Below, piece by piece: positions 8,796-64,000 of a stretch of 64,000 nucleotides of DNA. The notes beneath the pieces are model-generated. The model was not told the origin of the DNA. It was given only the letters and a program-made list of their open reading frames with translations, and ran no database searches. Origin of the DNA: a virus; IMG/VR virus record IMGVR_UViG_3300025383_000001, positions 1 to 64,000 of that record. The stretch is one strand, 5' to 3'. Numbering within the stretch: the first letter of the stretch is position 1; every line of letters begins with the position of its first letter. The position numbers and the translations under genes were made by a program.

Positions 8796-8810
8796 CGGTT
8801 TTGAGGTTAT

Positions 8811-11814: not shown

Positions 11815-11826
11815 TATTATTTGCTT

Positions 11827-11893
11827 GTAGTCTAGGGTTTTGACTACGCATCCTTTACAGTGACTTAACCCCACCCAAGCGGTGGGGTCTTTT
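11827..11893 (+). terminator. double hairpin with strong rho-independent terminator
   Basis: A first hairpin GTAGTC-(9 nt)-GACTAC (11827-11847) is followed by CCCCACC-CAAGC-GGTGGGG (11869-11887) and TCTTTTTT. It ends the left plus-strand operon and faces the end of the minus-strand late region at 11894. The T tract is on the plus-strand side only. Confidence 0.85.
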
Positions 11894-29802: not shown

Positions 29803-29805
29803 GGT

Positions 29806-31092: not shown

Positions 31093-31101
31093 TATTTTTC
31101 C

Positions 31102-32082: not shown

Positions 32083-32091
32083 GGTAAATCC

Positions 32092-32469: not shown

Positions 32470-32484
32470 GTAATATCTCCTTTG

Positions 32485-50357: not shown

Positions 50358-50467
50358 AGACCTGGTTTGGTAGGTTATATGCTGCCGACTATACCACAAA
50401 ATGAAAATGGGGTACTACTAGAACCAATGTATGTGAAGCATTAAGAAACCTAGTTTCCCCCACCAAG

Positions 50468-50590
50468 TTATTTTACTTTGAAAAACTCTTTAATACTAGA
50501 TAGCACTGACTGAACCCAGAACTCATTGATCTGCTGGTAATGCTTAGCCATCTGCTCTACTTTTTTGTATTGCTCTTCAAATGAAAACAT
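50468..50590 (-). CDS. 40-residue phasin-like helical protein
   Basis: ATG at 50590 follows TTAAGGAGAAAATT, a strong ribosome binding site. The product, MFSFEEQYKKVEQMAKHYQQ then INEFWVQSVLSSIKEFFKVK, is one amphipathic helix pair with the FW-x-x-V-x-S-x-x-x-F pattern of phasins. If it is expressed it is the first gene of the late minus-strand unit. Function unknown. The spacing of 110 bases to the terminase gene is otherwise empty. Confidence 0.55.
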   Translation of the reverse strand: MFSFEEQYKKVEQMAKHYQQINEFWVQSVLSSIKEFFKVK

Positions 50591-51021
50591 AATTTTCTCC
50601 TTAAGTTTTGCTGCAATGCAGCATAAAAGAATTCTATCACAAAAATATTATTGGGGGTATGGCACCAAATAAAAAAGGTATGGGGGGTGTTTTCTAGGAT
50701 TAAATTAACAACATGTTGTCAGGAGATTAAGGCCCCCCTATGCACAAGAATAGATTGGGGTTAGTTGGTACTTATTGCCGGTTTTTAAATTTACATAATC
50801 TATTGTGCACATTATTGTGTATAGGTGTTGCCAGGGTCCTCTTTACCCTATCTTGGGGGCTGGGGGTAGGTAGGGTTCATATAACCAGCATTTAAAGCCC
50901 CTGGGAGCAGGTTTTATTAGACAGATAGTTTACTGCTGGGATTTGTCCTGGTGTATAATGTACTTACCAGGTAGCAAGGTGTTACCTGGATTTAACCTAA
51001 CCTTAAATGGGAGATTGTAAA
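50591..51021. promoter_or_regulatory. divergent control region
   Basis: About 430 bases without a gene, between the late minus and early plus operons. It holds a perfect hairpin TGCTGC-AAT-GCAGCA (50609-50623), direct GGTATGG copies near 50656 and 50690, a perfect 12 bp palindrome ACAACATGTTGT (50708-50719), a G-run stretch (50855-50875, runs of 5, 5, 2 and 3 G) and a plus-strand promoter (next entry). It is the natural site for early-to-late switching. Confidence 0.6.
50930..50989 (+). promoter_or_regulatory. promoter with leader hairpin
   Basis: TATAAT at 50954-50959 has a weak -35 (TTACTG, 50930-50935, 18 base spacer). The leader then forms CCAGGTA-(9 nt)-TACCTGG (50967-50989), a 7 bp hairpin before the gene at 51022. 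The hairpin may be an operator or an RNA control element. Confidence 0.6.
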
Positions 51022-51645
51022 ATGGAAAATACTTTCCAATTATCAGAAGTACAAAACGACATGTTCACCAATATTGGCGTAACATTCGCAGTAGCTGAAC
51101 TAGATGCTGATGCAGCACTGGAAGATTTTGCCAGGGCAGTAACAGTAAAGAATGACCAGGGAGAGGATGTCGCATCCTATGATTTATGGGAATCAGGCAT
51201 GGCAGTAGTGAAACAGGCTTATGCTGGTAAGAAAGGTGTAACCCTGGATTCAGATACTATCAAGTCTATGGTTAAACGATTCTATCGTCGCCTGGAAGAG
51301 ATGTATGGTTTAACTAAGCCAGCTAAGCCCAGCGCTGAAGGTCAGAAAAAAGCAGCGCAGCGCACAAAAGCCCAGGCAGCATTAGATGAACTCAAGTCTA
51401 AATCTTATGATGAACTCCAAGAAGAGATGGCTAATCTATTGGCTAAGCCCAGTACTGAAACCCTTGCTGCTGCTGGTAAGATCGCCAAGGCTATCAAGGC
51501 TAAAGAAAAGGATGATGTTAAAGACCGTATGACTGAGATCAAGGCTAAGCAAGCCGAAGTAGCTAAGCTAGCTAAACAATGCCTGGTGGAAGATATCCTG
51601 GAAGAATGCCTGGAGCTCTTAGCCGCTAACATCACTATTCAATAA
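51022..51645 (+). CDS. helical DNA-interacting-type protein, paralogue A
   Basis: A 207-residue protein; start 51022 after GGGAGATTGTAAA (an in-frame ATG at 51007 would occupy that site). N-terminal half with LWESGMAVVKQAYAGKKGVT; C-terminal half with KKAAQRTKAQAALDELKSKS, EEMANLLAKPSTETLAAAGK and KEKDDVKDRMTEIKAKQAEV, all helical and charged. The second half is clearly related to the protein at 52579. First gene of the right arm, so probably early. Function unknown. Confidence 0.75.
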   Translation: MENTFQLSEVQNDMFTNIGVTFAVAELDADAALEDFARAVTVKNDQGEDVASYDLWESGMAVVKQAYAGKKGVTLDSDTIKSMVKRFYRRLEEMYGLTKPAKPSAEGQKKAAQRTKAQAALDELKSKSYDELQEEMANLLAKPSTETLAAAGKIAKAIKAKEKDDVKDRMTEIKAKQAEVAKLAKQCLVEDILEECLELLAANITIQ

Positions 51646-51665
51646 CCTATAACCAAGAAAGGATG

Positions 51666-51687
51666 CCCAGGGAAACCTGGGTATTTT
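51666..51687 (+). terminator. weak terminator or attenuator hairpin
   Basis: CCCAGG-GAAA-CCTGGG (51666-51681) with a GAAA tetraloop, followed by TATTTT. It lies between the genes at 51022 and 51692, suggesting reduced read-through. Confidence 0.6.
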
Positions 51688-51691
51688 AATT

Positions 51692-51928
51692 ATGCCTAGT
51701 TTAATTCTCAGTCCGGCCTATGGCCGGGATTATAAATCGAAGGCCGAAGTACTGTCGGCTTTCAATTCTGAAAAGGATTTTATTATCAATTCAGTAATGC
51801 CTGGTTATGCTGGTCTATATTGTAGTAAGCGGGATTTGTCCAGCTTTATTCGAGATGGGTTTACTCATATTGAAATTAGATACCGCAAAATGACCATGTG
51901 CATTTTCCTGGATATACGCAAACTATAA
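51692..51928 (+). CDS. hypothetical small protein
   Basis: A 78-residue protein. PSLILSPAYGRDYKSKAEVL, SAFNSEKDFIINSV, and HIEIRYRKMTMCIFLDIRKL give a compact alpha/beta pattern that reminds me of small conserved phage proteins. The ribosome binding site is poor, since the upstream hairpin is close. Encoded wholly within the CCWGG-dense island. Function unknown. Confidence 0.65.
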   Translation: MPSLILSPAYGRDYKSKAEVLSAFNSEKDFIINSVMPGYAGLYCSKRDLSSFIRDGFTHIEIRYRKMTMCIFLDIRKL

Positions 51929-51954
51929 CCAGGCAGCACCCAGTAGCACTAAGT

Positions 51955-51982
51955 CCCCAGGCATAGACCTGGGGATTTTTTT
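51955..51982 (+). terminator. rho-independent terminator
   Basis: CCCCAGG-CATAGA-CCTGGGG (51955-51974) followed by ATTTTTTT. It ends the first right-arm unit; both arms of the stem carry a CCWGG site. Confidence 0.85.
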
Positions 51983-52034
51983 GTCCCCAGTAAAAAATTA
52001 GGGAACTGGTTGTAAGCGACGCACTAGCCCGCAG

Positions 52035-52061
52035 GACAAAGTGTCACAATGCCACTATGTC
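52035..52061. repeat. 27 bp palindromic repeat R1
   Basis: GACAAAGTGTCA-CAA-TGCCACTATGTC. Ten copies of this family occur in the right arm (consensus GACAAAGTGTCA-N3-TGACACTATGTC). R1 is just after a shared block GGGAACTGG...GCGACGCACTAG (52002-52027) that reappears near 53290-53317. Confidence 0.9.
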
Positions 52062-52132
52062 TTTCTCGGTTAAGCTCTGTAGCAGAGCTTAATATAATTT
52101 TATCGAGTTGTCAAGCATACCGAGTTTATATT

Positions 52133-52432
52133 GTTCTAGCAATGTTCTACCTAATGTTCCTTGTAAGTCCTTGATTATAAAGGAATGTTCTATTGTTCCT
52201 AATGTTCCAAAAATTACTTTGCCCAAAATAATTTTACCGAGTGACAAAGACCCTCTATGCAAGTGCAGATTGCACATGGTGAAATCAAATGAAAAAACCC
52301 CCTCGTAGTAAATTAAATATATAGAACAATAGAACAATATAAATAAATAACCCGCAAAGCCTTTATCTATAAGGCTTAGAGAATGTTCCATCACTTAGAA
52401 CATTATAAGAACAATACCCTATTTTCTAGAAC
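52133..52432. repeat. GTTC/GAAC array in a non-coding gap
   Basis: GTTC occurs at 52133, 52144, 52155, 52187, 52195, 52204 and 52385, mostly as (A/T)ATGTTC(C/T). Its complement GAAC occurs at 52324, 52332, 52398, 52409 and 52429. Between them lies an interval with GTGCA-GAT-TGCAC. The layout suggests an iteron-like or operator cluster, possibly an origin of replication. No gene is credible in 51983-52578. Confidence 0.65.
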
Positions 52433-52447
52433 ATATAGGACAAGTCC

Positions 52448-52476
52448 TTGACATTTCCCACCAAGTGTGCTATACT
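52448..52476 (+). promoter_or_regulatory. strong sigma70-type promoter P1
   Basis: TTGACA (52448-52453), 17 bases, TATACT (52471-52476). The stretch TAGGACAAGTCCTTGACATT recurs almost exactly at promoter P2 (53371-53390). It drives the gene at 52579. Confidence 0.82.
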
Positions 52477-52514
52477 GTATTTGTGAGTCGGAAATTGTTT
52501 TTGGTTCACATCAG

Positions 52515-52541
52515 GACAAAGTGGCAGAGTGACACTAAGTC
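52515..52541. repeat. 27 bp palindromic repeat R2
   Basis: GACAAAGTGGCA-GAG-TGACACTAAGTC. It lies in the leader of the 52579 gene, about 38 bases after the promoter P1 -10, so it will be transcribed. Confidence 0.88.
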
Positions 52542-52578
52542 CCAAACCCTAAACCTCACTCTATTGGAGATTGTTATT

Positions 52579-53157
52579 ATGGCAACAAAAACTGTAGTTA
52601 AAACGGCAGAAATGCTATCTCAATTTGACGAGCAAGAAAAGGCTCGTTTGGTATCTGCAACCCTTGCAATGGACTCTGGTGAAGACGAAGTTGCGGAAGC
52701 AATCGCAACGATTGCTCGTGAACTCGGTAGCAAACCTAGTTGGGCTCGCTATTCAATGGGTCGCATTATCTTCGTTGAAACCCTCGAAGCACAGGGCAAA
52801 ACCGAGGACGCTATCAAGTCCAAGTGGAAGCGGGTTTGTCGTGACTCTGCTATCACTATTCCTGATAGTGATGACCCGCAAGCCAAGAAAAAGGCAGAGC
52901 AAAGGGCAAAGGCTCGTGCTGTATTTGAGAGCAAGTCCGACTCTGAACTAGAAGCGGAAATGGCAAACCTCTTGGCTCAACCTACTCTCAAGCGTATTGA
53001 GGAAGCCAAGAAACTTGGCAAGGAACTTGAGCAACGGCAGAAGGACGCAGGCAAGGACATCAAAGCAGAACTTGCAGAACTCCGCAAGGCTATCCGTGAC
53101 AAGGTCGCACTCATTGAGGACATTGAACAACTGCGTGAAATCCTCGACCAACTATAA
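52579..53157 (+). CDS. helical protein, paralogue B
   Basis: A 192-residue protein; start at 52579 after TTGGAGATTGTTATT. N-terminal half has QFDEQEKARLVSATLAMDSG and EVAEAIATIARELGSK. The second half, KKKAEQRAKARAVFESKSDS, LEAEMANLLAQPTLKRIEEA and KDAGKDIKAELAELRKAIRD, aligns by eye with the end of the 51022 protein (shared EMANLLAxP). Both are charged helical proteins without a named domain. It is followed by a strong terminator, so it is a single-gene unit under P1. Function unknown. Confidence 0.78.
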   Translation: MATKTVVKTAEMLSQFDEQEKARLVSATLAMDSGEDEVAEAIATIARELGSKPSWARYSMGRIIFVETLEAQGKTEDAIKSKWKRVCRDSAITIPDSDDPQAKKKAEQRAKARAVFESKSDSELEAEMANLLAQPTLKRIEEAKKLGKELEQRQKDAGKDIKAELAELRKAIRDKVALIEDIEQLREILDQL

Positions 53158-53179
53158 CTCAACCCGCAGTCCCTTTATA

Positions 53180-53203
53180 CCCCGCCTAGTGCGGGGTTTT
53201 TTT
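53180..53203 (+). terminator. rho-independent terminator
   Basis: CCCCGC-CTAGT-GCGGGG (53180-53196) followed by TTTTTTT. It closes the paralogue B unit. Confidence 0.88.
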
Positions 53204-53208
53204 ATTTT

Positions 53209-53237
53209 CATGCCATCATGCCATCATGCCATCATGC
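53209..53237. repeat. CATGCCAT tandem repeat
   Basis: CATGCCAT occurs three times and then CATGC, immediately before repeat R3. Its ATGCCA element echoes the TGCCAC variant arm of repeats R1 and R4. Confidence 0.85.
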
Positions 53238-53238
53238 G

Positions 53239-53265
53239 GACAAAGTGGCATCTTGACACTATGTC
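53239..53265. repeat. 27 bp palindromic repeat R3
   Basis: GACAAAGTGGCA-TCT-TGACACTATGTC, between the terminator at 53180 and promoter P2. The 53158-53491 gap also holds the second copy of GGGAACTGG-(N)-GCGACGCACTAG; I see no gene in it. Confidence 0.88.
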
Positions 53266-53382
53266 TTTTATACCCCCATTATTTTTTATGGGAACTGGCT
53301 CGACGAGCGACGCACTAGGGAATTCGTTAGCATTGGGGACGAGATTTGGACTTTTTGGACTCCTGTAAGCTAGGACAAGTCC

Positions 53383-53411
53383 TTGACATTTACCACTAGA
53401 TGTGGTATACT
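53383..53411 (+). promoter_or_regulatory. strong sigma70-type promoter P2
   Basis: TTGACA (53383-53388), 17 bases, TATACT (53406-53411). Same module as P1. It drives the long run of small overlapping genes from 53492. Confidence 0.82.
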
Positions 53412-53444
53412 AATAGAGTGGGAATTCGCCTACAACAACCAAAC

Positions 53445-53471
53445 GACAAAGTGTCACTATGCCACTATGTC
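53445..53471. repeat. 27 bp palindromic repeat R4
   Basis: GACAAAGTGTCA-CTA-TGCCACTATGTC, about 34 bases after the P2 -10, followed by CCCAACCAAACGGAG, a leader block that recurs after R9. Confidence 0.9.
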
Positions 53472-53491
53472 CCAACCAAACGGAGTCAAGC

Positions 53492-53650
53492 ATGACAAGT
53501 AAAGAACAAGCCCAACTAACAGGCACGCTACAAAAACTGCTAACCCTTTGCCTCAAATATCCGACCGCAGAAAACATTGCTCTCGCCAAAGAAGTAATGA
53601 AGACAATCAATGTAGTCGGTCTTCAATCCGCAGACAAAGTGGCAGAGTGA
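53492..53650 (+). CDS. small helical protein
   Basis: A 52-residue protein: TSKEQAQLTGTLQKLLTLCL then KYPTAENIALAKEVMKTINV. ATG at 53492 follows ACGGAGTCAAGC; an ATG inside repeat R4 (53459) is in frame but would read through the leader. The end lies in repeat R5. Helical, function unknown. Confidence 0.6.
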   Translation: MTSKEQAQLTGTLQKLLTLCLKYPTAENIALAKEVMKTINVVGLQSADKVAE

Positions 53651-53659
53651 CACTATGTC
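53633..53659. repeat. 27 bp palindromic repeat R5, carrying a stop and a start codon
   Basis: GACAAAGTGGCA-GAG-TGACACTATGTC. The TGA of the 53492 gene and the ATG of the 53655 gene both fall inside it, so the dyad spans a gene border and could control translation. Confidence 0.9.
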
Positions 53660-53957
53660 CAAACTCAAACTAACCTTCGAACCCGCAAGCCAAGTGCCAC
53701 GCACCCACATCAGTCAGTCTTACTTGTGTGTTTCTCGTGTATCACATGATTGTGATGTTCATGTAGAAGCAAGCCGAGCCGACTATCTCAAAGCAAACAA
53801 TCTCCGCATGGTTTGCCACAAGTGTGGCGACGCACTAGCGACGCTAGAGTCCAAACGCAAAGCAAGCATGGTTCAGATTCCGTATTCCAAAGGTGCGTAT
53901 CAGTATATCCACAACCCCGACGAATTACGCTTTACTAACCCAAAGAGGACAACATGA
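53655..53957 (+). CDS. hypothetical protein with Cys-x-x-Cys site
   Basis: A 100-residue protein starting inside repeat R5. SKLKLTFEPASQVPRTHISQ, then LCVSRVSHDCDVHVEASRA and MVCHKCGDALATLESKR, give two Cys pairs that may bind zinc. The end (PYSKGAYQYIHNPDELRFTN) is polar. Its stop overlaps the next start (ATGA). No clear Shine-Dalgarno, consistent with coupling to the upstream stop. Function unknown. Confidence 0.65.
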   Translation: MSKLKLTFEPASQVPRTHISQSYLCVSRVSHDCDVHVEASRADYLKANNLRMVCHKCGDALATLESKRKASMVQIPYSKGAYQYIHNPDELRFTNPKRTT

Positions 53958-54121
53958 TGACCAAAGAAGAAGCCGACGCACTAATGCGTCTAACCGCCTA
54001 CATGCTAGACGAGGATAAGTTAGCCGAATACAAGGGCTCTTTCCGTCAGCCAAACAACGATGTAGAAATGCTCAACGATTACTTGTTGGGTCTTGATTCA
54101 ACAGGGAGTTATCCAAAATGA
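53954..54121 (+). CDS. 55-residue hypothetical protein
   Basis: ATG at 53954 overlaps the previous stop and its own TGA overlaps the next ATG. MTKEEADALMRLTAYMLDED, KLAEYKGSFRQPNNDVEML and NDYLLGLDSTGSYPK: acidic, helical, no known domain. Overlaps on both sides support real translation. Confidence 0.65.
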   Translation: MMTKEEADALMRLTAYMLDEDKLAEYKGSFRQPNNDVEMLNDYLLGLDSTGSYPK

Positions 54122-54342
54122 CCTACACATTCAAACCTCGCAGTCGCAAGAACCTAATCGAGCAAGCCAATGCTCGTGCAATATCTACTCGAATCAAGCA
54201 GATGGCGACGCTTGAAGAAAAGCAGCAGCTTGTCGTTGAGACCAACCCTTTCTTGCATATATTTGGCAAGCAACGCTTGGCTCAGGGTCATCTTGATTAC
54301 AGCACTTGGCTTGACCGCATTTACATCGGGAGACGAAAGTGA
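54118..54342 (+). CDS. small basic hypothetical protein
   Basis: A 74-residue protein: TYTFKPRSRKNLIEQANARA, STRIKQMATLEEKQQLVV, WLDRIYIGRRK. Basic N terminus with helices. Part of a run of overlapping genes under P2. Function unknown. Confidence 0.6.
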   Translation: MTYTFKPRSRKNLIEQANARAISTRIKQMATLEEKQQLVVETNPFLHIFGKQRLAQGHLDYSTWLDRIYIGRRK

Positions 54343-54530
54343 AAGACTACCCGCCTTTCAGCGTCATGGACATAGCGATGGTCAAGGCTTGGAATTTCTG
54401 CATGGAATACGATTCGCACTCAGGTCGTGAAGTAGAACGCATGGGTGCAACCTACCTAAAAGAAGGCTATATCGAGGGCTTTCTTGCAGGCTTTTCACAC
54501 AGGCTCGTAGGTGATGATGAAAATAGTTAA
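54339..54530 (+). CDS. small hypothetical protein (GTG start)
   Basis: A 63-residue protein: KDYPPFSVMDIAMVKAWNFC, SGREVERMGATYLKEGYIEG and FLAGFSHRLVGDDENS. GTG start inside the end of the previous gene. The pattern of a helix with AWNFCMEYD suggests a folded unit. Function unknown. Confidence 0.6.
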   Translation: MKDYPPFSVMDIAMVKAWNFCMEYDSHSGREVERMGATYLKEGYIEGFLAGFSHRLVGDDENS

Positions 54531-54693
54531 GTTATATCGTCATCCTGAAAAGCCTGAGTTCTATCTATTAGTCAAGCATGGTGAGATGGGACTGCTTGTG
54601 AATTACCCTATCGACAAACCTGATCGGAAACGACAGGCTCGGTGGTTTTCTTTAAACGAAGTATATATAGATTGGATAAGGGAGTTTATATGA
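54514..54693 (+). CDS. small hypothetical protein
   Basis: A 59-residue basic protein (MMKIVKLYRHPEKPEFYLLV then MGLLVNYPIDKPDRKRQARW and FSLNEVYIDWIREFI). Two ATG codons and a GTG at 54511 compete as start. Beta-rich with basic loop. Coupled to the following membrane protein gene. Function unknown. Confidence 0.55.
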   Translation: MMKIVKLYRHPEKPEFYLLVKHGEMGLLVNYPIDKPDRKRQARWFSLNEVYIDWIREFI

Positions 54694-54845
54694 TGTATTT
54701 ATTCGGAGTAGTAATTCTTTTGACAACGATTATGGTTTCATCTGTTGCTTGGATATGGGTAGACACACCCTTGCTTGCAATCGCTGGACTTGTCATATCG
54801 TCGTTTACCCTCGGCTTCATTCTAGGGGAGAACAGTAGTGACTGA
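54690..54845 (+). CDS. two-helix membrane protein
   Basis: A 51-residue protein with two hydrophobic segments (MYLFGVVILLTTIMVSSVAW and LLAIAGLVISSFTLGFILG). ATG at 54690 follows GGGAG. A small membrane protein of unknown function. It may act on the host envelope or be a superinfection factor, but nothing specific is visible. Confidence 0.6.
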   Translation: MMYLFGVVILLTTIMVSSVAWIWVDTPLLAIAGLVISSFTLGFILGENSSD

Positions 54846-55020
54846 GCATTACAAAGGGCAACGCATTGACGAATTGTTAGACATGATTGTCCGACTGCAG
54901 TATGCACTAGAAGAGAATAGAGATAGCGTCGACAGCGACGAGGTAGTTCGCCTCGTTGAATCAGAAGCTACCCTTGCAATTATGAAAGCAAAACTAACCG
55001 CACTACAAGGAGAAAAATGA
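54838..55020 (+). CDS. small acidic helical protein
   Basis: A 60-residue protein (GTG start): TEHYKGQRIDELLDMIVRLQ, NRDSVDSDEVVRLVESEATL and AIMKAKLTALQGEK. A charged coiled coil. Both ends overlap neighbours. Function unknown. Confidence 0.6.
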   Translation: MTEHYKGQRIDELLDMIVRLQYALEENRDSVDSDEVVRLVESEATLAIMKAKLTALQGEK

Positions 55021-55166
55021 ATGACAAGAAACTGAATGAACTCATGGCATTACTAAACATGGCAAGCACTCGTGGGATTACCAAAGACCACATGAGATTG
55101 CTTGTTATTCAAGCACAAGAAATTGTGCGTCAACTAAAGAAGGAGAAGTTAAATGGCAAGACCTAG
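55017..55166 (+). CDS. 49-residue hypothetical protein
   Basis: ATG at 55017 overlaps the previous TGA. MNDKKLNELMALLNMASTRG, ITKDHMRLLVIQAQEIVRQL, then KKEKLNGKT. Helical, basic C terminus overlapping the next gene. Function unknown. Confidence 0.6.
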   Translation: MNDKKLNELMALLNMASTRGITKDHMRLLVIQAQEIVRQLKKEKLNGKT

Positions 55167-55446
55167 AAAAGCAAAACCCATGCCTGTCGAAGGCAACGCA
55201 TTAGCACTAGACCTTAAAAACCCACAAAGTTTTGAAGGTGTCACCGACCCTCGCCACGCAGTAGGCAGAACAAGCCGTAGTGCAAGCGAGGCATTCAAAG
55301 ACGCAACCTATGCACAGTCAATGTGGAAATGCGAGTCTGATTTTGAATATGGAGTCCGCTTTGTCAGCGACATGGTGGTCGGTATGTTCACAGTCTTTAT
55401 GTATTTACTAGTCCCTGTGTTATTAGCAGTTTGGTTATTTAGATAG
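55153..55446 (+). CDS. C-terminally membrane-anchored hypothetical protein
   Basis: A 97-residue protein. A basic start (ARPRKAKPMPVEGNALALD) and a polar middle are followed by a membrane segment (MFTVFMYLLVPVLLAVWLF) at the very end. Start preceded by AAGGAGAAGTTAA. Last gene before repeat R6. Function unknown. Confidence 0.65.
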   Translation: MARPRKAKPMPVEGNALALDLKNPQSFEGVTDPRHAVGRTSRSASEAFKDATYAQSMWKCESDFEYGVRFVSDMVVGMFTVFMYLLVPVLLAVWLFR

Positions 55447-55472
55447 ACAAAGTGTCATTGTGACACTAAGTC
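55446..55472. repeat. 27 bp palindromic repeat R6
   Basis: GACAAAGTGTCA-TTG-TGACACTAAGTC, directly between the genes at 55153 and 55495, with its first base in the preceding stop codon. Confidence 0.9.
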
Positions 55473-55494
55473 CCTTTATTACGGAGTCAATTAA

Positions 55495-56196
55495 ATGATG
55501 AAACCTCAAGCATACGAAGCATTGCAAAAAGCAAAGGCACTATTTCGCCACCCAGCAGAAGTCGTGCAAGATGATATTCCATCTGAAGCAACACCAATCG
55601 AGCCTATTCGCAAACCACGAGTAGTCCTTTTACCACCCGATGCACCTAAGTTTGACCAACACTCAATGAAAGAGGAACACAAAAAGATGGAACAAGCCAA
55701 ACAAACCGAACTAGAAAACACCCTCGAAGAAATGGGGCTTACAACCCCAGCCATGAGAGAGCACAAAAAACAAATCGACAAGTATGCCGATATGTCTGTC
55801 ACCAAAGCGTGTGAAGTTTGCCTTGCCAAAGGCATCAAGCAACCCGCAAATATTGCTAAAGAAACAGGCAAGAATGTAAATCAGATTTACACCGCCTTGT
55901 GGCATATCAAGCAACGCAAGAAAAAAGCCAAGGCTCAAGCCAAAGAAGCAAAGCGTTATGAGTATGACATGAGCAAGCCAAACCCCAAATTTGTAGCACC
56001 CAAGTCGTTGGACAAAGTGCAAGCCGATTGGGACAGAGAGCCGACTGCATGGGAAGACGCACACAGGGTAGTCCTGCATGACAGGGAGTGGTATGAAGCC
56101 GAGATTGAAAAGCTAGCGACGGCTAACACCGACTTGCTTATCCAAATTCAAGAACTCAAAACCATCATCAAATACTTGGAAGGTAAATCCAAATGA
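55495..56196 (+). CDS. HTH-containing putative regulator
   Basis: A 233-residue protein. QAYEALQKAKALFRHPAEVV, a Pro-rich segment, coiled coil, then an HTH (SVTKACEVCLAKGIKQPANI, AKETGKNVNQIYTALWHIKQ) at about residues 100-140 with a Lys-rich end. A second coiled coil (AEIEKLATANTDLLIQIQEL) ends the protein, as in DNA-binding dimers. It lies between two palindromic repeats and is a candidate to bind them. Function unproven. Confidence 0.65.
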   Translation: MMKPQAYEALQKAKALFRHPAEVVQDDIPSEATPIEPIRKPRVVLLPPDAPKFDQHSMKEEHKKMEQAKQTELENTLEEMGLTTPAMREHKKQIDKYADMSVTKACEVCLAKGIKQPANIAKETGKNVNQIYTALWHIKQRKKKAKAQAKEAKRYEYDMSKPNPKFVAPKSLDKVQADWDREPTAWEDAHRVVLHDREWYEAEIEKLATANTDLLIQIQELKTIIKYLEGKSK

Positions 56197-57143
56197 CATA
56201 TACACATCAAGGGTATAACTGTGCCCGCATTCCAGCACTCGCAAACTATGCTCAAGCAAAAGAGCATTACCAATCCGTTGCACCCATTCGTGGGAGAAAC
56301 CCCGAAGTCAGACCTCTTGGTAAGAACCGCCGCTTTACATGGTTCACTATCAACGAGAAGCACACGGTCTTGCCCGAATCTGATGACCCACTCGGTTCAT
56401 TCGACATCGCCTATATTCTGCGTTGTTGGAACACCGACTTGATTACATTTCACAGTAATGGTGACATTGTTCTCAAGGATACTAGTTGGCATAGCCCGAC
56501 GACGATGGGTTTCATGACCTTTTCATTGCAGGCTTTCGGTTCAATCATATCCAAGCGAGGCAAATGGTATTTCCAAAACAGCAAGGGGGAGAGTTTTCTT
56601 TTCCACAATGAAATGACTCTACGACAAAACGACGATGGGTTTGTCCGACCCAAAGAAGAAGTTGTAGAGAAGCGATACCGACTGTCACGCAAAGCGATGA
56701 ACTCTATTCGCAAGAAATACAAGGGCTTTATCGAATACGGGAAGAACGCTTTGTCTATCGACCCGACTGTCACAAGGCTTGAAGTTGCCGAGGCTAATCA
56801 TGGCTTGTCATTTCAAGACACACATCTTGTGCCTTATTACTCGTGGAATAGCCCCAACACCGACGGGTCTAACCGCACAAAGCTTTTTCAAGCATTGGAT
56901 AGCTTTAATCAGTCTGGGGATTTAACCCTAGCTTACGAGTTGCTTTGCTATGTAGCACAGTCGGTCGGTCGGTATAACTACCATAAGCAAATCATTGTGT
57001 GTGAACCTAATTGGTTTGTAAACAGAATGACCGAAGCAATGAAGTATCAATTCGCCAAAGAATTGTTTGTCGAAGAAACAGTAGAGAAGGGTGTCGTCTT
57101 TCATGATGACAATATTAAGTATGTAGCAAGAAGTGCGAAGTAA
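56193..57143 (+). CDS. hypothetical protein
   Basis: A 316-residue protein. HQGYNCARIPALANYAQAKE, DIAYILRCWNTDLITFHSNG, then TLRQNDDGFVRPKEEVVEKR and IRKKYKGFIEYGKNALSIDP give mixed alpha/beta structure with no family I can name. It overlaps the HTH gene by four bases and precedes repeat R7. Not obviously an enzyme. Confidence 0.65.
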   Translation: MTYTHQGYNCARIPALANYAQAKEHYQSVAPIRGRNPEVRPLGKNRRFTWFTINEKHTVLPESDDPLGSFDIAYILRCWNTDLITFHSNGDIVLKDTSWHSPTTMGFMTFSLQAFGSIISKRGKWYFQNSKGESFLFHNEMTLRQNDDGFVRPKEEVVEKRYRLSRKAMNSIRKKYKGFIEYGKNALSIDPTVTRLEVAEANHGLSFQDTHLVPYYSWNSPNTDGSNRTKLFQALDSFNQSGDLTLAYELLCYVAQSVGRYNYHKQIIVCEPNWFVNRMTEAMKYQFAKELFVEETVEKGVVFHDDNIKYVARSAK

Positions 57144-57145
57144 GG

Positions 57146-57172
57146 GACAAAGTGTCATGGTGACACTATGTC
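57146..57172. repeat. 27 bp palindromic repeat R7
   Basis: GACAAAGTGTCA-TGG-TGACACTATGTC, three bases after the stop of the 56193 gene and about 40 bases before the MoxR ATPase gene. Confidence 0.9.
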
Positions 57173-57208
57173 TTAGTTTTAAATCTAACTTAAATAAAGG
57201 AAACGGAA

Positions 57209-58303
57209 ATGTCGGAAGTATTATTAAATAAATTCTCTACCCTCAAAGAAGCAGAGGATATGATTGTGTCTTGTGGTGCTGGCGCAACCTTTCACCTTAT
57301 GGGCGAACCAGGTGTAGGCAAAACCTCAATGTTCCGCAATATTGTTGCAAGAACTGGCTATAAAGGTATTTACATTGACGCACCAAACATCGAGCTTGGA
57401 GAATTGGGAATCCCAATCCCTAACCACGAAACCAAAACTACTCGCATTTATCCAAACGAGCAATGGGGTTTCCACCTAAACGAGCCGCTTGTTATCTTCA
57501 TCGACGAGTTCACCAAAGCCATGCAAGGTGTTAAGAATATGTTGCACCCAATGCTTAACGAGCCACGCATGGTTATGGGTATCCCATTGCACGAGAAAAC
57601 GATAGTCGTAACGGCAGGTAATTACACTACCGACGGTGTAGGCGACACAATGATGAGCCATTCTCGCAATCGTATCTCTGTGGTCAATGTCAAGAAACCG
57701 CACGCAGGCTTTAATCCTGATGGCTCTATTGATGCTGACTCATGGGGTGAATGGGCAGTCAAGAATGATGTAGTCCCCGAAGTATTGGCATGGGTAAAGA
57801 ATAACCCTCAAGCACTAGCCTCATACTTAGACCCATCACAGGCTGGCAACAAATACATCTTCAATCCAAAAGAAGCACAGAAGTCTTTTGTGTCGCCCCG
57901 CTCATTGGTTCGTGCAAGTAATATTCTCAAGCACAGAGCCGACTGCACAACGACAGCCATTACTTGTGCATTGGAAGGGACTATCGGAGCACCTGCGGCT
58001 AGGGATTTGATGGCATTCGTAGATGTGGCGGATAGCCTACCGACATGGGAAGCAATCATCAAAGACCCACAAACCGCTACCGTGCCGACTAGTCCAGCAG
58101 CCTTGTGCTTACTTGCTTTTAGTGCAGTAAATAGAGTTGACCGCAACACCATCTCTAAATTCTTTGACTACCTCAAGCGGACTCCAAAAGAGTTGCAATC
58201 TGTCTTCTGCTTAACAGGCATGAAGAACGACGAGAAGAAAAAGACATTCTTAACCAGCCAAGCATTTACTGATTGGATGCGTGAGAACCAATACTTGTTC
58301 TAA
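57209..58303 (+). CDS. MoxR/CobS-like AAA+ ATPase
   Basis: A 364-residue ATPase. Walker A GEPGVGKT (residues 32-39), Walker B LVIFIDEFTK with Asp99/Glu100, TIVVTAGNYTTDGVGDTMM as sensor 1 with Asn, then HSRNRISVVNV (arginine finger region). MoxR-family ATPases act as chaperones for metal centre or complex assembly, together with a vWA protein, here encoded at 58623. A viral MoxR/vWA pair is known from an archaeal virus (ATV p618/p892). Preceded by AAAGGAAACGGAA and repeat R7. Confidence 0.87.
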   Translation: MSEVLLNKFSTLKEAEDMIVSCGAGATFHLMGEPGVGKTSMFRNIVARTGYKGIYIDAPNIELGELGIPIPNHETKTTRIYPNEQWGFHLNEPLVIFIDEFTKAMQGVKNMLHPMLNEPRMVMGIPLHEKTIVVTAGNYTTDGVGDTMMSHSRNRISVVNVKKPHAGFNPDGSIDADSWGEWAVKNDVVPEVLAWVKNNPQALASYLDPSQAGNKYIFNPKEAQKSFVSPRSLVRASNILKHRADCTTTAITCALEGTIGAPAARDLMAFVDVADSLPTWEAIIKDPQTATVPTSPAALCLLAFSAVNRVDRNTISKFFDYLKRTPKELQSVFCLTGMKNDEKKKTFLTSQAFTDWMRENQYLF

Positions 58304-58305
58304 AC

Positions 58306-58332
58306 GACAGAGTGTCATGGTGACACTTTGTC
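58306..58332. repeat. 27 bp palindromic repeat R8
   Basis: GACAGAGTGTCA-TGG-TGACACTTTGTC. Here the fifth base is G and its partner T, so as RNA a G-U pair would replace the A-A mismatch of most copies; as DNA it breaks the dyad. Confidence 0.9.
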
Positions 58333-58350
58333 CTAACCTAAGGAAACTAT

Positions 58351-58635
58351 ATGAAAAAGAAAATGACAGACGAAATGTTTGAACAAGCAAATCGTCTTAA
58401 AAACGACATTGGCACTTTGCTAGAAGCGTCTGATGTAGAACTTGGATTGATACTGCCTGTGTTGATTGCAATCACTTGTGAAGCGGCGATTATCCAAGCT
58501 GAAATGAAACCGCACGAGTTTCTACGCTCAATCACAAATGGTGTATGTGCAATGATTGACTTATCTCAGGAAGTTGAGGAAGAAGAAGATGATGAACCAA
58601 CCGATGGAAGGAATAATATTCAATGGCTAAACTAA
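58351..58635 (+). CDS. hypothetical acidic protein in the MoxR/vWA cassette
   Basis: A 94-residue protein. Helical middle (RLKNDIGTLLEASDVELGLI, LPVLIAITCEAAIIQAEMKP) and a very acidic end (LSQEVEEEEDDEPTDGRNNI). It lies between the ATPase and the vWA genes and overlaps the latter by 13 bases, so it may be a cassette subunit. No named domain. Confidence 0.6.
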   Translation: MKKKMTDEMFEQANRLKNDIGTLLEASDVELGLILPVLIAITCEAAIIQAEMKPHEFLRSITNGVCAMIDLSQEVEEEEDDEPTDGRNNIQWLN

Positions 58636-59858
58636 CTGCCGAACAACGCATCGAAAGATGCCATGTGCAACTTATGAAGCACAGGAACTTTGCCCTGTTC
58701 TCAGGCTTATTTATGATTGGCAAGGTGACTGTTGCCGAAAACACCAATCATGGAACTGCGGCGACTAATGGTGTTGATGTGACCTATGACAGAGCATTCG
58801 TCGATAGGCTCAACGATAAGCAACTAGCCTTTCTTATACTGCACGAGAATATGCACAAGGCTTATCGACATCTTGTCGTATGGGAAAGCCTGCATCGCAA
58901 GAATAGGATGCTCGCAAATGCGGCGTGCGACTATGTCATAAATTTACAGATTCGTGATTATGACCCTAGCGAATACGATACGCAATTCCCAACCGACGAG
59001 TTCGGCAATCAGATGGGTTTGATTGACGAGAAGTATCGTGGCATGGACTCTGCCCAAGTATTCAAGCTACTCGAAGAAGAACATGGCGGTGGTGGCGGTG
59101 GTGGCGGTGGTGATGGTGATGGAAAAATCTTTGTCGTAGGCGATGGCAACGGATTCGACCATCACGATTGGGAAGATGCACAAGAACTATCCGATACCGA
59201 AAAGGAAGAAATAGCCAAAGAGATTGAGTCTGCGTTGCGTCAGGGCTCTATCCTAGTCGGCAAGCTAGGCGGTAATGTTTCTCGTGAGATAGGCGACATG
59301 CTAACTCCCAAAGTAGATTGGAAAGAAGCGTTGCGTGATTTCGTCAAGTCATCCACGCAAGGCAAGGAAAAGTCTACATGGAAGCGACTGCATAAACGCT
59401 ATATCGGTATGGATATCGTGATGCCCTCACAATATTCTGAAAAGGTAGGCGGCATTGCTATCGGTATCGACACATCAGGCTCGATTGGTTCGGAAGAACT
59501 TAATCAATTCTTATCTGAAGTTAAGTCTATCTGCGAAGAAGTATCACCCGAACAGATTGATTTGCTTTATTGGGATACTCATGTGGCTTCTAGAGAAACA
59601 TATATGCAGAACGAGCTTGCAGGTCTGGAACAAAACACCAAGCCAGCAGGCGGTGGTGGGACTGACCCGACTTGTGTGCCTAAGTTTATGGCGAAGCATG
59701 ATATCAAAGCCGAGTGCCTTATCTTTCTGACCGATGGATATATCGGGCGACAAAACCCAAGCGACTATTCAAGCCTGACCATGCCTGTGTTGTGGTGCAT
59801 CAAAGGCAATAGTCATTTTAACGAAGCCGTAGTTGGCAAAGTAGTTCATGTTGAATAA
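58623..59858 (+). CDS. DUF2201-like metallopeptidase with vWA domain
   Basis: A 411-residue protein. LAFLILHENMHKAYRHLVVW gives HExxH (His74, Glu75, His78), followed by CDYVINLQIRDYD as in DUF2201-type putative metallopeptidases. A Gly-rich linker at about residue 160 leads to a vWA domain: GIAIGIDTSGSIGSEELNQF with MIDAS-type Asp283-Thr-Ser-Gly-Ser, GGGGTDPTCVP and FLTDGYIG. Pairing with the MoxR ATPase two genes upstream matches known vWA-MoxR systems. Peptidase activity is possible but not shown. Confidence 0.85.
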   Translation: MAKLTAEQRIERCHVQLMKHRNFALFSGLFMIGKVTVAENTNHGTAATNGVDVTYDRAFVDRLNDKQLAFLILHENMHKAYRHLVVWESLHRKNRMLANAACDYVINLQIRDYDPSEYDTQFPTDEFGNQMGLIDEKYRGMDSAQVFKLLEEEHGGGGGGGGGDGDGKIFVVGDGNGFDHHDWEDAQELSDTEKEEIAKEIESALRQGSILVGKLGGNVSREIGDMLTPKVDWKEALRDFVKSSTQGKEKSTWKRLHKRYIGMDIVMPSQYSEKVGGIAIGIDTSGSIGSEELNQFLSEVKSICEEVSPEQIDLLYWDTHVASRETYMQNELAGLEQNTKPAGGGGTDPTCVPKFMAKHDIKAECLIFLTDGYIGRQNPSDYSSLTMPVLWCIKGNSHFNEAVVGKVVHVE

Positions 59859-59868
59859 GGAGAAACAA

Positions 59869-60099
59869 ATGATTGAAACCAAAATGCCGAAAGGCAGAGC
59901 AAGAGATGGAAAGATAAACATCAGCCTCAACCCTGAGACTGTTGCTCAACTCGTCGTAGTAAAAGATGATATCGGAACTGCCCTGGGCTTTTCCGTATCG
60001 TATTCCCAAGCAATACAACACCTCATTAAGCATTTCAACCAACGGACAGAGTGTCAAGGTGACACTTTGTCCCAACCAAACGGAGAGTCAAATGAATAA
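59869..60099 (+). CDS. ribbon-helix-helix-like DNA-binding protein
   Basis: A 76-residue protein; start 59869 after AAGGAGAAACAA. DGKINISLNPETVAQLVVVK followed by SVSYSQAIQHLIKHF is a beta strand plus two helices, as in RHH (Arc/CopG-like) domains, with a polar end. Its 3' end contains repeat R9, so the last codons (TECQGDTLSQPNGES) come from the repeat. An autoregulatory role through the palindrome is plausible. Confidence 0.6.
   Translation: MIETKMPKGRARDGKINISLNPETVAQLVVVKDDIGTALGFSVSYSQAIQHLIKHFNQRTECQGDTLSQPNGESNE
60045..60071. repeat. 27 bp palindromic repeat R9
   Basis: GACAGAGTGTCA-AGG-TGACACTTTGTC inside the end of the RHH-like gene. It is followed by CCCAACCAAACGGAG, as after R4, supplying the ribosome binding site of the next gene. 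Confidence 0.9.
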
Positions 60100-60979
60100 C
60101 TCAATCAACATCTCATCATCAGCCATGCTAGTCGAACTAAGCATCCGTAGTTGGACTGCACGCAAGTTGGACAAGCGTGTTTCTAGCGAAGTAGATACGG
60201 CTAAAGGGGCAAAGACCAGAGTGGTAAACGCAAACAAGAACCTACTCGCAGGCACAGGGGTTCTTGATACCATCATCAAGTATGCCGCCAATGCTCGTGC
60301 ATGGCACAACGCACAAACTCTGCCGTGGTCTGACAACGGCTCTCGCTTGTTGCCTGTATCTAACTTTGTAAATTACAAAGAGCAACTCAATGTGCTTGAG
60401 CAGAACTACACCGCATTGGTCGGTAAGTTTATCACCGCATACCCAGACCTAGTTAGTGCGGCTGCGTTTCAGTTGGGCGACTTGTTCGATAGGTCAGAGT
60501 ATCCCGACGCAAGCAAGATAGCGACGAAGTTTAGTTTCAATTACAGTTTCTTTCCTGTGCCGACTGCTGGCAGTTTTCTTCCCGACCTAATCGAAGAAGC
60601 CAAGCGTGAAGTGCAAGACAGTTGCAGTAAGGCTTACGACGAGCGTCTTAACAATGCAATGCGTGAAGCGTGGGATAGGTTGCATGATTGTCTTATTCGT
60701 ATGAGTGAGCGACTAGCACCAGCAACACCAAGACCATTAAAGGATGGGACATTTACTGATGTTCCTGTATTCCGTGACAGCCTTGTCGAGAATGCGTTAG
60801 AGTTAACAAGCCTCCTAACACATTTTAATCTTACGAACGACCACAATCTTGACCTTGCCAAGCAAGAGTTGTATCAGGCAATCAAGAACCACGATGCCGA
60901 CTCGCTACGCAAAAACGCACAGGCTCGTGAAGTAGTCAAGGCAAAGGTAGATGCGATTCTTAACAAGTTTAATTTCTAA
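60092..60979 (+). CDS. DUF3150-like protein of the MoxR/vWA cassette
   Basis: A 295-residue protein, start at 60092 after CGGAGAGTCAA. SIRSWTARKLDKRVSSEVDT, TIIKYAANARAWHNAQTLPW, SNFVNYKEQLNVLEQNYTAL, then helices. It resembles DUF3150 proteins, found in plasmid and phage gene sets with CobS-like AAA+ and vWA/CobT genes. The identity is moderate by eye, but the neighbourhood fits. Almost all helical; biochemical role unknown. Confidence 0.6.
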   Translation: MNNSINISSSAMLVELSIRSWTARKLDKRVSSEVDTAKGAKTRVVNANKNLLAGTGVLDTIIKYAANARAWHNAQTLPWSDNGSRLLPVSNFVNYKEQLNVLEQNYTALVGKFITAYPDLVSAAAFQLGDLFDRSEYPDASKIATKFSFNYSFFPVPTAGSFLPDLIEEAKREVQDSCSKAYDERLNNAMREAWDRLHDCLIRMSERLAPATPRPLKDGTFTDVPVFRDSLVENALELTSLLTHFNLTNDHNLDLAKQELYQAIKNHDADSLRKNAQAREVVKAKVDAILNKFNF

Positions 60980-60988
60980 GGGGTAAGT

Positions 60989-61858
60989 ATGATAGCAATA
61001 GATAAATCAGTCTTAAAGAAAGAATACCGAGACGCAGAGGTTGACCAAATGCTGGTTAACTTTGCCGACTTGGTAGGCTTTGCCAAGCCATGTTGCAATT
61101 TCGTGTTAGACGATAACTGCGTGGACAGGGAATGGGTAGTCGACGAGCAGAACAAAAGTCTCAGCAAACACTATATCCGTAGGCTCAGGGTGTTTGAGAA
61201 CGGCGAGGAGTTGGGCGACATAGGTGTGTCTAGACGCTACACAGGCGGTTCGTCTGACATGGTCTACAAGGTTCGAAGTTTTCGTATTGTCAAAGAACGG
61301 GGCGACCGCAACGGAGTGACGGCTAAAGATATTAAGGTTGCTCTCCGCCACGCTAAAAAAGTATTTGTTTCTAGAGAATCAGCAGAACTTATAGCCCAAG
61401 TAAAAAATGCAGTAGACAGCCATGTTAATTATCTAGAAAGCCGAACATGCCATCAGTTGCAATGGACTATGGATAGTATGGCGACTAGTGTAGACCTTGC
61501 TTTGCACGCACAAGAAGCTAGGCGAAAGGGGGAGCAAGTAGTTTCCGTTCCTTTGAGTATGGTCAGGGTTAATAATAAAATAGAAGACCACGATGCGGCT
61601 TGCGATAGATACAGAGAAGCTAAGTCTTTGTTAGATGGTATACAAAATGGCAAAGGCTATGGTGTATTTTGTCGCATTGACAATAGCTTAGTTGTGTATA
61701 GCTATTCTACGAACACGGTTAAGCGATACGCTAGCTTTGAAGAATTGCCCGAACCCATACAGAGTAAGTATGCAATGTTCAAGGTTCTCGACAAAGAAGA
61801 GCCACACGAAACAATCGGATGCAAGTTTGATGAGGGCTACTTTTATGTGGTAGAGTAG
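60989..61858 (+). CDS. hypothetical protein
   Basis: A 289-residue protein. KEYRDAEVDQMLVNFADLVG, VDEQNKSLSKHYIRRLRVFE and SRRYTGGSSDMVYKVRSFRI form a beta-rich first half; helices follow (DIKVALRHAKKVFVSRESAE), then a second beta region (YGVFCRIDNSLVVYSYSTNT). No family was recognised. It closes the MoxR/vWA operon. Function unknown. Confidence 0.65.
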   Translation: MIAIDKSVLKKEYRDAEVDQMLVNFADLVGFAKPCCNFVLDDNCVDREWVVDEQNKSLSKHYIRRLRVFENGEELGDIGVSRRYTGGSSDMVYKVRSFRIVKERGDRNGVTAKDIKVALRHAKKVFVSRESAELIAQVKNAVDSHVNYLESRTCHQLQWTMDSMATSVDLALHAQEARRKGEQVVSVPLSMVRVNNKIEDHDAACDRYREAKSLLDGIQNGKGYGVFCRIDNSLVVYSYSTNTVKRYASFEELPEPIQSKYAMFKVLDKEEPHETIGCKFDEGYFYVVE

Positions 61859-61986
61859 TCTCTGACTTCCGTGGGAATTTTTGATTGGGTTTGTAGAACC
61901 TAGTATGATGCGAAGCAAGCCACGGCTTATGCCGACAATCTCCCCCTAGCGTAAGTAGGATACGCAATCTACTTGACCTACACCAA

Positions 61987-62008
61987 GCCACCTTCGGGTG
62001 GCTTTTTT
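61987..62008 (+). terminator. rho-independent terminator
   Basis: GCCACC-TTCG-GGTGGC (61987-62002), a classic UUCG loop, followed by TTTTTT. Confidence 0.9.
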
Positions 62009-62013
62009 ATTGG

Positions 62014-62040
62014 GACAAAGTGTCACGATGACACTATGTC
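62014..62040. repeat. 27 bp palindromic repeat R10
   Basis: GACAAAGTGTCA-CGA-TGACACTATGTC, upstream of promoter P3 (its -35 begins 29 bases later), in a good position for an operator or activator site. Confidence 0.9.
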
Positions 62041-62068
62041 TTCGGGTTAACACCTACAAAAAAACTTC

Positions 62069-62096
62069 TTGCATTTATCTGGGGAAGGACTATACT
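62069..62096 (+). promoter_or_regulatory. promoter P3
   Basis: TTGCAT (62069-62074), 16 bases, TATACT (62091-62096), with the same -10 as P1 and P2. It drives the nuclease-polymerase unit. Confidence 0.65.
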
Positions 62097-62125
62097 GTGT
62101 CAATAATTATATTAAAGGATGCAGT

Positions 62126-62428
62126 ATGACCCCCGAATCAAAGGTCAAAGCTCAAGTAGTTAAGCTACTTAAAGAGAATGACATATATTACTTCTTTCCA
62201 GCCACGCACGGTTATGGTCGTTCGGGTGTGCCCGATATTGTCTGTTGCTACAATAGCCAGTTCCTAGCCATAGAATGCAAAGCAGGCAAGGGCAAAACAA
62301 CTGCACTCCAAGAAAAAGAAATTAAAAAGATTCGTGATGCGGGTGGACATGCCTTTGTCATCAACGAGACCAACATTCACACACTAGCCTTGTATTTATT
62401 GGGGGGACAAGATGACGACCGATGCTAA
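62126..62428 (+). CDS. VRR-NUC domain nuclease
   Basis: A 100-residue protein; start at 62126 (an in-frame ATG at 62069 overlaps the promoter). ESKVKAQVVKLLKENDIYYF, GYGRSGVPDIVCCYNSQFLA and IECKAGKGKTTALQEKEIKK contain the VRR-NUC catalytic pattern GxPD...ExK (Asp of VPD, Glu and Lys of IECK), ending HAFVI. Phage VRR-NUC proteins are probable structure-specific or Holliday-junction nucleases. First gene of the P3 unit. Confidence 0.87.
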   Translation: MTPESKVKAQVVKLLKENDIYYFFPATHGYGRSGVPDIVCCYNSQFLAIECKAGKGKTTALQEKEIKKIRDAGGHAFVINETNIHTLALYLLGGQDDDRC

Positions 62429-62705
62429 AAGTATGACCAGTTCCAAAGAAATGAACAACGGTATTGAAATTATTTTAAAGCGGATGGAAACCCACCCCGA
62501 AGAATTTTATGGGGAAAGCAAGAAGTGGGCATTCATGTATAAAGAATATTTCCGTGACATTATGACTGAGTCCGAGAAAGCCGCCATTCACGAGAAGCTG
62601 AAGGAAATCCGTCGTGCGGAATTAACTTATCAAGTAATGCGGACAATGACAGAAGAGCCTGAGTATGAATACAAATGGGTGGCTGACACTAGGGTTAAAT
62701 ACTAA
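62412..62705 (+). CDS. hypothetical protein
   Basis: A 97-residue protein. MNNGIEIILKRMETHPEEFY, SKKWAFMYKEYFRDIMTESE, AAIHEKLKEIRRAELTYQVM are helices; the end is acidic-basic mixed (EPEYEYKWVADTRVKY). It overlaps both neighbours. No family recognised; it may be an accessory of the replication genes. Confidence 0.65.
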   Translation: MTTDAKSMTSSKEMNNGIEIILKRMETHPEEFYGESKKWAFMYKEYFRDIMTESEKAAIHEKLKEIRRAELTYQVMRTMTEEPEYEYKWVADTRVKY

Positions 62706-63127
62706 TGAGCCTAGTCAAAGCCTTCGAGCAAGAACTCTACGATAAATACGACGCACCAGCAAAGGAAGCGGTTGCTCGCTACCTGATGGACACTTGCGGG
62801 TATGAAGTCACTCCCAATAACGACGCCTACGGCATCGACCTTTTGGTCAAAAAAGCTGGCTCAACGATTGGTGCAGTAGAAGTAGAAGTCCGCCAATGGA
62901 GTCCTATTTGTCCGTTCCCAACAATCCACGTGCCTAGCCGTAAGACTAAATTTTTTGGTGGTAACTCTTTGTTCTTTGCTTTAACAAAAGACATGAAGCA
63001 CGCATATTGGATTGAGTCTAAAGAAATACTCAAGCATCCAATGAAAGAAGTTCGTAATGTAAAAGTCGTAAGTGGTGAATTGTTTTACGATGTGCCGACT
63101 AACGAATTTAATTTTGTAGATTTATGA
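62705..63127 (+). CDS. possible PD-(D/E)xK nuclease-like protein
   Basis: A 140-residue protein. NDAYGIDLLVKKAGSTIGAV followed by EVEVRQW gives D-x(n)-ExE spacing as in restriction-like folds, with a preceding helix (AVARYLMDTCGYEV) in the usual place. The final half is beta-rich. The expected Lys of the ExK is not clear, so activity is uncertain. Overlaps the polymerase start by four bases. Confidence 0.5.
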   Translation: MSLVKAFEQELYDKYDAPAKEAVARYLMDTCGYEVTPNNDAYGIDLLVKKAGSTIGAVEVEVRQWSPICPFPTIHVPSRKTKFFGGNSLFFALTKDMKHAYWIESKEILKHPMKEVRNVKVVSGELFYDVPTNEFNFVDL

Positions 63128-64000
63128 ATATTTTAACAATCGACTTCGAAACTTATTACGCTAGGGACTTTAGCTTGACCAAGCTAACTACTGAAGAGTA
63201 TGTGCGTGATGATCGTTTTGAAGTTATCGGAGTATCAGTAAAGGAGAATGATGATGAAGTTAGATGGTTTAGCGGTTCTCACAAAGAAATACTGGATTTC
63301 CTGCATAGCTACGACTGGAGTAATTCTTTTGCTCTTGCCCATAACGCTATGTTTGACTCTGCTATTCTCAGTTGGCGGTTTGGTATTCGCCCAATGGCTT
63401 GGCTGGACACGCTTAGCATGGCTCGTGCGACGGATGGTTTGGAGGCTGGAAACAGTTTGGCTAAACTTGCTGTGCGCTACAACCTCGGACGAAAAGGGAC
63501 AGAAGTTGTTGAAGCCCTCGGCAAACGACGTCAAGATTTTAGCGTCAATGATCTTAGCGCATATGGCGGATATTGTAATAATGACGTGGAGTTAACCTAC
63601 GCTCTTTTTCAAGTCCTATCACAACGCTTTAGCCTCAGTGAACTTAAGCTAATTGATGTAACCATCAAGATGTTTGCCGAGCCGACACTATTTTTAGATA
63701 CTACGTTGCTTGAGCAACACCTCATGCAGGTAAGAGACCGCAAAGAGAAATTGCTTGCTGCTTGTGTAGCAGATAAAGATACGCTTATGAGCAACCCCAA
63801 GCTAGCTGAATTGCTAATTTCACTTGGTGTTGAGCCCCCTATGAAAATAAGTCCAGCCAATGGAAAGGATACATATGCGTTTGCCAAAAACGACGAAGGA
63901 TTCAAGGCTCTTGCAGAACACCCCGATGAGCGTGTCCAAGCCGTTGTTGCCGCTCGTTTGGGCACTAAATCAACGCTTGAGGAAACTCGTACAGAACGAT
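63124..64000 (+). CDS. family A DNA polymerase, 3'-5' exonuclease part (truncated by window)
   Basis: The frame runs open to the end of the window. NILTIDFETYYARDFSLTKL carries exonuclease motif I (DxE), LAHNAMFDSAILSW motif II, and AYGGYCNNDVELTYALFQVL motif III (Asp), the DnaQ-like order. Helical sequence follows, as before the polymerase domain, which lies beyond base 64000. It replicates the phage genome together with the primase-helicase at 8811. ATG overlaps the previous stop. Confidence 0.87.
   Translation, partial: MNILTIDFETYYARDFSLTKLTTEEYVRDDRFEVIGVSVKENDDEVRWFSGSHKEILDFLHSYDWSNSFALAHNAMFDSAILSWRFGIRPMAWLDTLSMARATDGLEAGNSLAKLAVRYNLGRKGTEVVEALGKRRQDFSVNDLSAYGGYCNNDVELTYALFQVLSQRFSLSELKLIDVTIKMFAEPTLFLDTTLLEQHLMQVRDRKEKLLAACVADKDTLMSNPKLAELLISLGVEPPMKISPANGKDTYAFAKNDEGFKALAEHPDERVQAVVAARLGTKSTLEETRTER

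Follow-up and report, generated by a model that had tools for sequence, protein, structure and literature searches.

What is the role of the similar palindromes that recur along one arm of a freshwater phage genome? The window analyzed here (64,000 nt, positions 1 to 64,000 of IMG/VR record IMGVR_UViG_3300025383_000001) carries ten copies of a 27-bp dyad family (R1-R10), which a sequence-only reading took to be either operators of a phage-wide regulator or RNA processing or attenuation hairpins. We conclude that there is good support for a conserved operator network at the DNA level, divided into lineage-specific classes, and that it probably acts on transcription elongation.

The ten dyads of the window

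All ten copies occur where the sequence-only reading placed them, on the plus strand and with at most two mismatches, and none is found in 100 dinucleotide shuffles. A motif scan across the full 66,656-bp record returns exactly these ten sites, none of them outside the right arm, and the reversed pattern used as a control gives 0 matches. The arms are kept and the central N3 is variable. Most sites lie between genes or across gene borders; the earlier statement that they always do so fails for R9, which is embedded in the 3'-terminal part of an RHH-like ORF. R5 contains a stop codon (53648-53650) together with the following ATG at 53655, and R6, R7 and R8 each start within 0-2 nt of the preceding stop codon. 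The promoter assignments of the earlier reading hold: the -10 element of a TTGACA-17-TATACT promoter lies 39 bp before the start of R2 and 34 bp before that of R4, and R10 ends 28 bp ahead of a weaker promoter, TTGCAT-16-TATACT (62069-62096). The features of this region are as follows.

52035-52061 (+), R1 dyad, 106 nt after the 51692-51928 ORF and ahead of the promoter that serves the 52579 gene
52448-52476 (+), promoter of the 52579 gene, TTGACA-17-TATACT with extended -10
52515-52541 (+), R2 dyad in the leader, 39 bp past the -10 and 37 nt ahead of the 52579 gene
53239-53265 (+), R3 dyad, after the terminator at 53179-53197
53383-53411 (+), promoter TTGACA-17-TATACT with extended -10
53445-53471 (+), R4 dyad in the leader, 34 bp past the -10
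53633-53659 (+), R5 dyad, across a stop and the next start codon
55446-55472 (+), R6 dyad, overlapping the last base of a stop codon
57146-57172 (+), R7 dyad, 2 nt past a stop codon and ahead of the MoxR gene
57209-58303 (+), MoxR-type AAA ATPase, the anchor for finding relatives
58306-58332 (+), R8 dyad, 2 nt past the MoxR stop codon
58623-59858 (+), VWA/DUF2201 protein, the partner gene of MoxR
59848-60099 (+), RHH-like small protein, 83 aa
60045-60071 (+), R9 dyad, in the last 55 nt of the RHH-like ORF and 20 nt ahead of a DUF3150-like gene
62014-62040 (+), R10 dyad, between the terminator at 61985-62004 and the promoter at 62069-62096

Other repeats are present in the window. A hairpin, GCTCTGTAGCAGAGC, is located just behind R1 (52069-52093) and has GCTCTGGTACAGAGC-like versions in relatives. 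A GGGAACTGG...GCGACGCACTAG stretch is common to 51998-52030, beside R1, and 53290-53320, beside R3. A 43-nt repeat ending in AAGAAAGGCACAAGAGAAATGA occurs four times within 1903-2559, with three copies 91-100% alike, and the reverse-strand genes of 28642-33479 contain dense CCACCGCC-type and other repeats.

Lineage-specific classes in related phages

Relatives were sought by a motif pattern scan of viral contigs and with the MoxR protein as an anchor. The pattern scan finds the motif class of the window in 20 stretches of 12 viral contigs, and 84,980 prokaryote genomes yield 2 single matches. The MoxR search returns 53 loci. About 40 related contigs have their own 25-29 bp dyad families, located in one arm at conserved gene borders and mostly present in 5-12 copies where the contig extends far enough; among close relatives (MoxR identity 75-84%), nearly all have such a family. 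The 15 contigs that were scanned over their full or nearly full length have their sites in one arm, with one weak extra match in G003. The positions recur: a site lies ahead of MoxR in 24 of the 24 genomes counted, ahead of the DUF3150-like gene in 22 and after the terminator in 19, and further sites occupy other borders.

The gene borders are shared by relatives and the arm sequence is specific to the lineage. Approximately 14 operator classes, separated by eye on their arm sequences, differ in sequence and in spacer, which is constant within a class (3, 4, 5 or 6) and varies between classes. Arm identity between positions within one genome is 0.86. At the same position, it is 0.91 for genomes of the same class and 0.58 for genomes of different classes, and the sites of a lineage change in concert. 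Small mobile or selfish repeats that spread through duplication could also produce a family of this kind, and some flanks are alike (R4 and R9). This origin is very improbable because the same gene borders are occupied in divergent relatives, the arms are kept while flanks and spacers differ, and change is coordinated within each lineage.

Variation as a DNA dyad

Class A, to which the window belongs, has 90 distinct sites, and the changes among them are mirror-image and uncompensated. Pair 12/16 (n = 90) is A-T in 67 sites, G-T in 11, A-C in 10 and G-C in 0; pair 10/18 (n = 90) is T-A in 53, G-A in 18, T-C in 14 and G-C in 2. Over all classes, mismatches of the G-T and A-C types occur in a ratio of 89:69 (fraction 0.56, bootstrap interval 0.49-0.64). 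One contig (L077) carries four copies of its asymmetric site in each orientation, which together with the mirror-image, uncompensated changes agrees with the binding of DNA by a symmetric protein dimer. In class A, mismatches at pair 5/23 are more often A/A than T/T (48:11), a preference for one orientation that reading as a pure dyad would not require, but orientation is mixed in L077, L055 and L043; with this remaining bias, site orientation may matter somewhat.

From this pattern we infer that the dyads are DNA operators bound by a symmetric dimer and not RNA hairpins. Processing, attenuation or protein-binding stem-loops (nut- or put-like sites or RNase sites) might be expected from the location of the sites in leaders and intercistronic gaps, from their mostly single orientation and from the prediction that all copies fold as some hairpin. 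However, no compensatory change between the arms is seen in the 90 sites, A-C is as frequent as G-T at pair 12/16, and pair 5/23 is more often an A/A mismatch than anything else. In the window, a mismatch interrupts the middle of the stem in half of the copies, and no Rfam family matches 50000-64000 at the gathering score. The two orientations in L077 also argue against a transcript-level element, as does Planktothrix phage Pag-Yong1 (OL906435.1): in 20 of its 25 sites, G and C flank the central base, and a loop of 1 nt does not allow them to pair. The hairpin half of the earlier proposal is consequently improbable, and its operator half agrees with the uncompensated dyad-type variation, the conserved positions and the concerted change in each lineage.

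Position of the sites relative to promoters

Strong sigma-70-like promoters precede the sites. When promoter-site pairs are counted within 150 bp, the site is 32-103 bp downstream of the -10 element in 46 pairs and upstream in 8, and it overlaps the promoter in 0; some of these loci are near-identical, so the 46 pairs are not all independent. At least one downstream pair is found in 34 of 38 loci. A search for a T7-type RNA polymerase gives no PF00940 match, and the control for this search likewise matched nowhere. Because the sites lie 32-103 bp past the -10, promoters are avoided and R6-R8 directly follow stop codons, they point to an influence on polymerase that is already elongating (by roadblock or by antitermination) and not on initiation. 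Judged from these positions, a stoperator-like, many-site action on transcription elongation is likely.

The same geometry could belong to antitermination or RNA polymerase modification sites that are read as DNA, at which a factor would load in leaders or between genes and keep transcription going. The distance past the -10, the repetition along the operon and the orientation bias are all compatible with this arrangement. It is nevertheless unlikely, since a single site per transcript suffices for a processive antiterminator, which would not call for one every 1-2 kb, and since the site is a dyad. Sites for DNA organization, partition, replication or packaging are decidedly improbable. Centromere-like sites and KorB-type operators are dispersed dyads, and the array may be said to resemble them. 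On the other hand, the sites here are restricted to one arm and tied to promoters and stop codons, and there is no CbiA/ParA-type match in six contigs.

A candidate binding protein

The proteins considered as binders include the RHH-like protein above and the following.

51007-51645 (+), paralogue of the candidate, type I, 212 aa
52579-53157 (+), candidate cognate DNA-binding protein, type II, 192 aa, all-helical, of no known fold or family
8501-8725 (+), conserved HTH_3-like protein

Members of the 51007/52579 family are present in every close relative whose locus extends far enough upstream. Among about 38 families, this one has the distances that follow those of the operators most closely (partial rho 0.52-0.53 against 0.44 for the next; n = 12), and 24 loci give a partial rho of 0.43-0.53 (p = 0.001); both sets of values allow for the distances of MoxR and VWA, and the partial Mantel test is a liberal one. 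The link is correlative, and ancestry accounts for part of it. Class changes number 11, the minimum, on each of the regulator, MoxR and w56193 trees, which therefore do not discriminate, and because the MoxR and w56193 trees likewise recover the classes as monophyletic, the connection between protein and operator is not independent of ancestry. The predicted model of the 52579 family is confident (mean pLDDT 90.3), and the protein has no Pfam or PHROG match, no PDB or BFVD fold relative and no recognizable DNA-binding fold. On these comparisons, the 51007/52579 family is the likely binder of the operators.

It is less probable, but conceivable, that the dyads serve as operators for a different protein of the phage (w56193, the RHH protein or the HTH protein) or for a host factor. 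The protein w56193 is universal in close relatives, evolves fast and weakly tracks the operators (partial 0.26-0.29), but it matches no known fold. RHH and HTH proteins are DNA-binding types. The RHH-like gene (59848-60099) is absent from its locus in several classes, and we rejected its product as a general binder; the HTH_3-like protein was also rejected, as its recognition helix is nearly invariant across classes and its distances do not track those of the operators (partial -0.05). A host factor does not easily explain the switching of all sites in each phage lineage. The w56193 gene (56193-57143) encodes 316 aa and occurs in 15 of 15 contigs, and its model (pLDDT 91.4) has no PDB fold match.

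Comparison with known arrays

The sequence-only reading knew of no name for this network. In the literature searched, no paper was found that describes the arrays of this clade, but analogues have been published for Clusters A, K, O and EG. In the temperate mycobacteriophages of Cluster A (L5, Bxb1), a monomeric repressor binds stoperators, which are asymmetric sites of 13 bp (PMC6550527, PMC9283540). Stoperators share with the present arrays many sites across one genome, a site at the gene of the repressor (here the candidate), lineage-specific motifs and a correlation of repressor distance with motif distance. They also lie mostly in one orientation, as do the present sites apart from the mixed L077, L055 and L043. 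In contrast, the sites here are 25-29 bp dyads, neither an integrase nor a ParA-type gene is found in six contigs, and the candidate has no L5 gp71 family match (no Pfam, PHROG or fold match). Because these six contigs, which may be incomplete, have no PF00589, PF00239 or PF01656 match, a prophage-silencing role has no direct support, and we set aside a lysogeny network.

Cluster O mycobacteriophages have more than 30 dispersed 17-bp dyads, TGTTCGG-N3-CCGAACA, of unknown function (PMC4351075). These arrays also have a variable N3 center, occur without an integrase and are denser toward one genome end, but about a third of the copies are in coding regions and the motif differs from that of the window. 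A query built from the Cluster O motif matches 31 Mycobacterium and 2 Gordonia records and no others, so class switching is not seen in Cluster O. In the stretch examined of the Cluster O phage Catdawg, neither the candidate nor MoxR/VWA has a homologue. Microbacterium Cluster EG phages contain 18-bp inverted repeats, GATCAACCNNGGTTGATC (PMC7302621), with 8-10 intergenic copies ahead of genes at one genome end and, as here, no repressor or integrase found; unlike the dyads here, they are identical in sequence in three phages, and a binder was not proposed. The ESAS of Cluster K mycobacteriophages are tied to start sequences and are reported to contain a promoter (PMC3203893, PMC11373665). They are likewise imperfect intergenic inverted repeats whose left arm is closer to consensus than the right, whereas the dyads here avoid promoters.

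Proposed mechanism

We favor, with somewhat better than even confidence, a network in which R1-R10 would be operators of one phage-encoded, dimeric, sequence-specific DNA-binding protein that controls elongation in the arm. Bound at many leader and intergenic sites of one arm, this protein would act on host RNA polymerase as it passes; a roadblock of the kind formed by stoperator repressors is the most likely mode, and the arm and the regulator's own gene would be damped or shut off. The protein is most likely the approximately 200-aa helical family encoded at 52579-53157, plus its paralogue at 51007-51645, and the 52579 gene is located behind a promoter plus an operator. The protein and every site in one genome would switch specificity jointly, which would account for the separate class of each lineage.

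If this mechanism operates, phages without recognized lysogeny genes might use arm-wide DNA roadblocks that depend on a new all-helical protein. It is possible, but more speculative, that protein and sites diversify in step into classes foreign to one another, in the manner of immunity types, and that co-infecting relatives thereby can or cannot silence each other. The dispersed dyad arrays of Clusters O and EG were previously reported without a binder or purpose; about 40 contigs, about 14 site classes and one ranked candidate make the function of such arrays directly testable. If the candidate binds, then it would be a DNA-binding protein without a detectable relative and with a ready-made specificity series.

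Dyad arrays in distant phages

Pag-Yong1 (L129), whose MoxR has 28% identity, contains 25 dyads, GGTTCAGNCTGAACC, in 2201-34918. Nineteen of the 25 are at gene borders, though 78% of the stretch is well inside genes, and several begin 4 nt past a stop codon. Rhizobium phage RHph_TM27A (L131, MN988461.1) has about 30 looser GGTTACCT-N4-AGGTAACC matches in 1984-37010, many of them intragenic. No dyad family is present in the first 50 kb of each of DSL-LC04, 023Pt_psg01 and HTVC027P, which are related by terminase and have no MoxR gene named in their annotation. Neither the two distant phages with dyad arrays nor the three terminase relatives yield a detectable homologue of the candidate. A further contig with a distant MoxR (L084) has six copies of a different dyad, AAGTTCTTANNTAAGAACTT, in 7246-12669.
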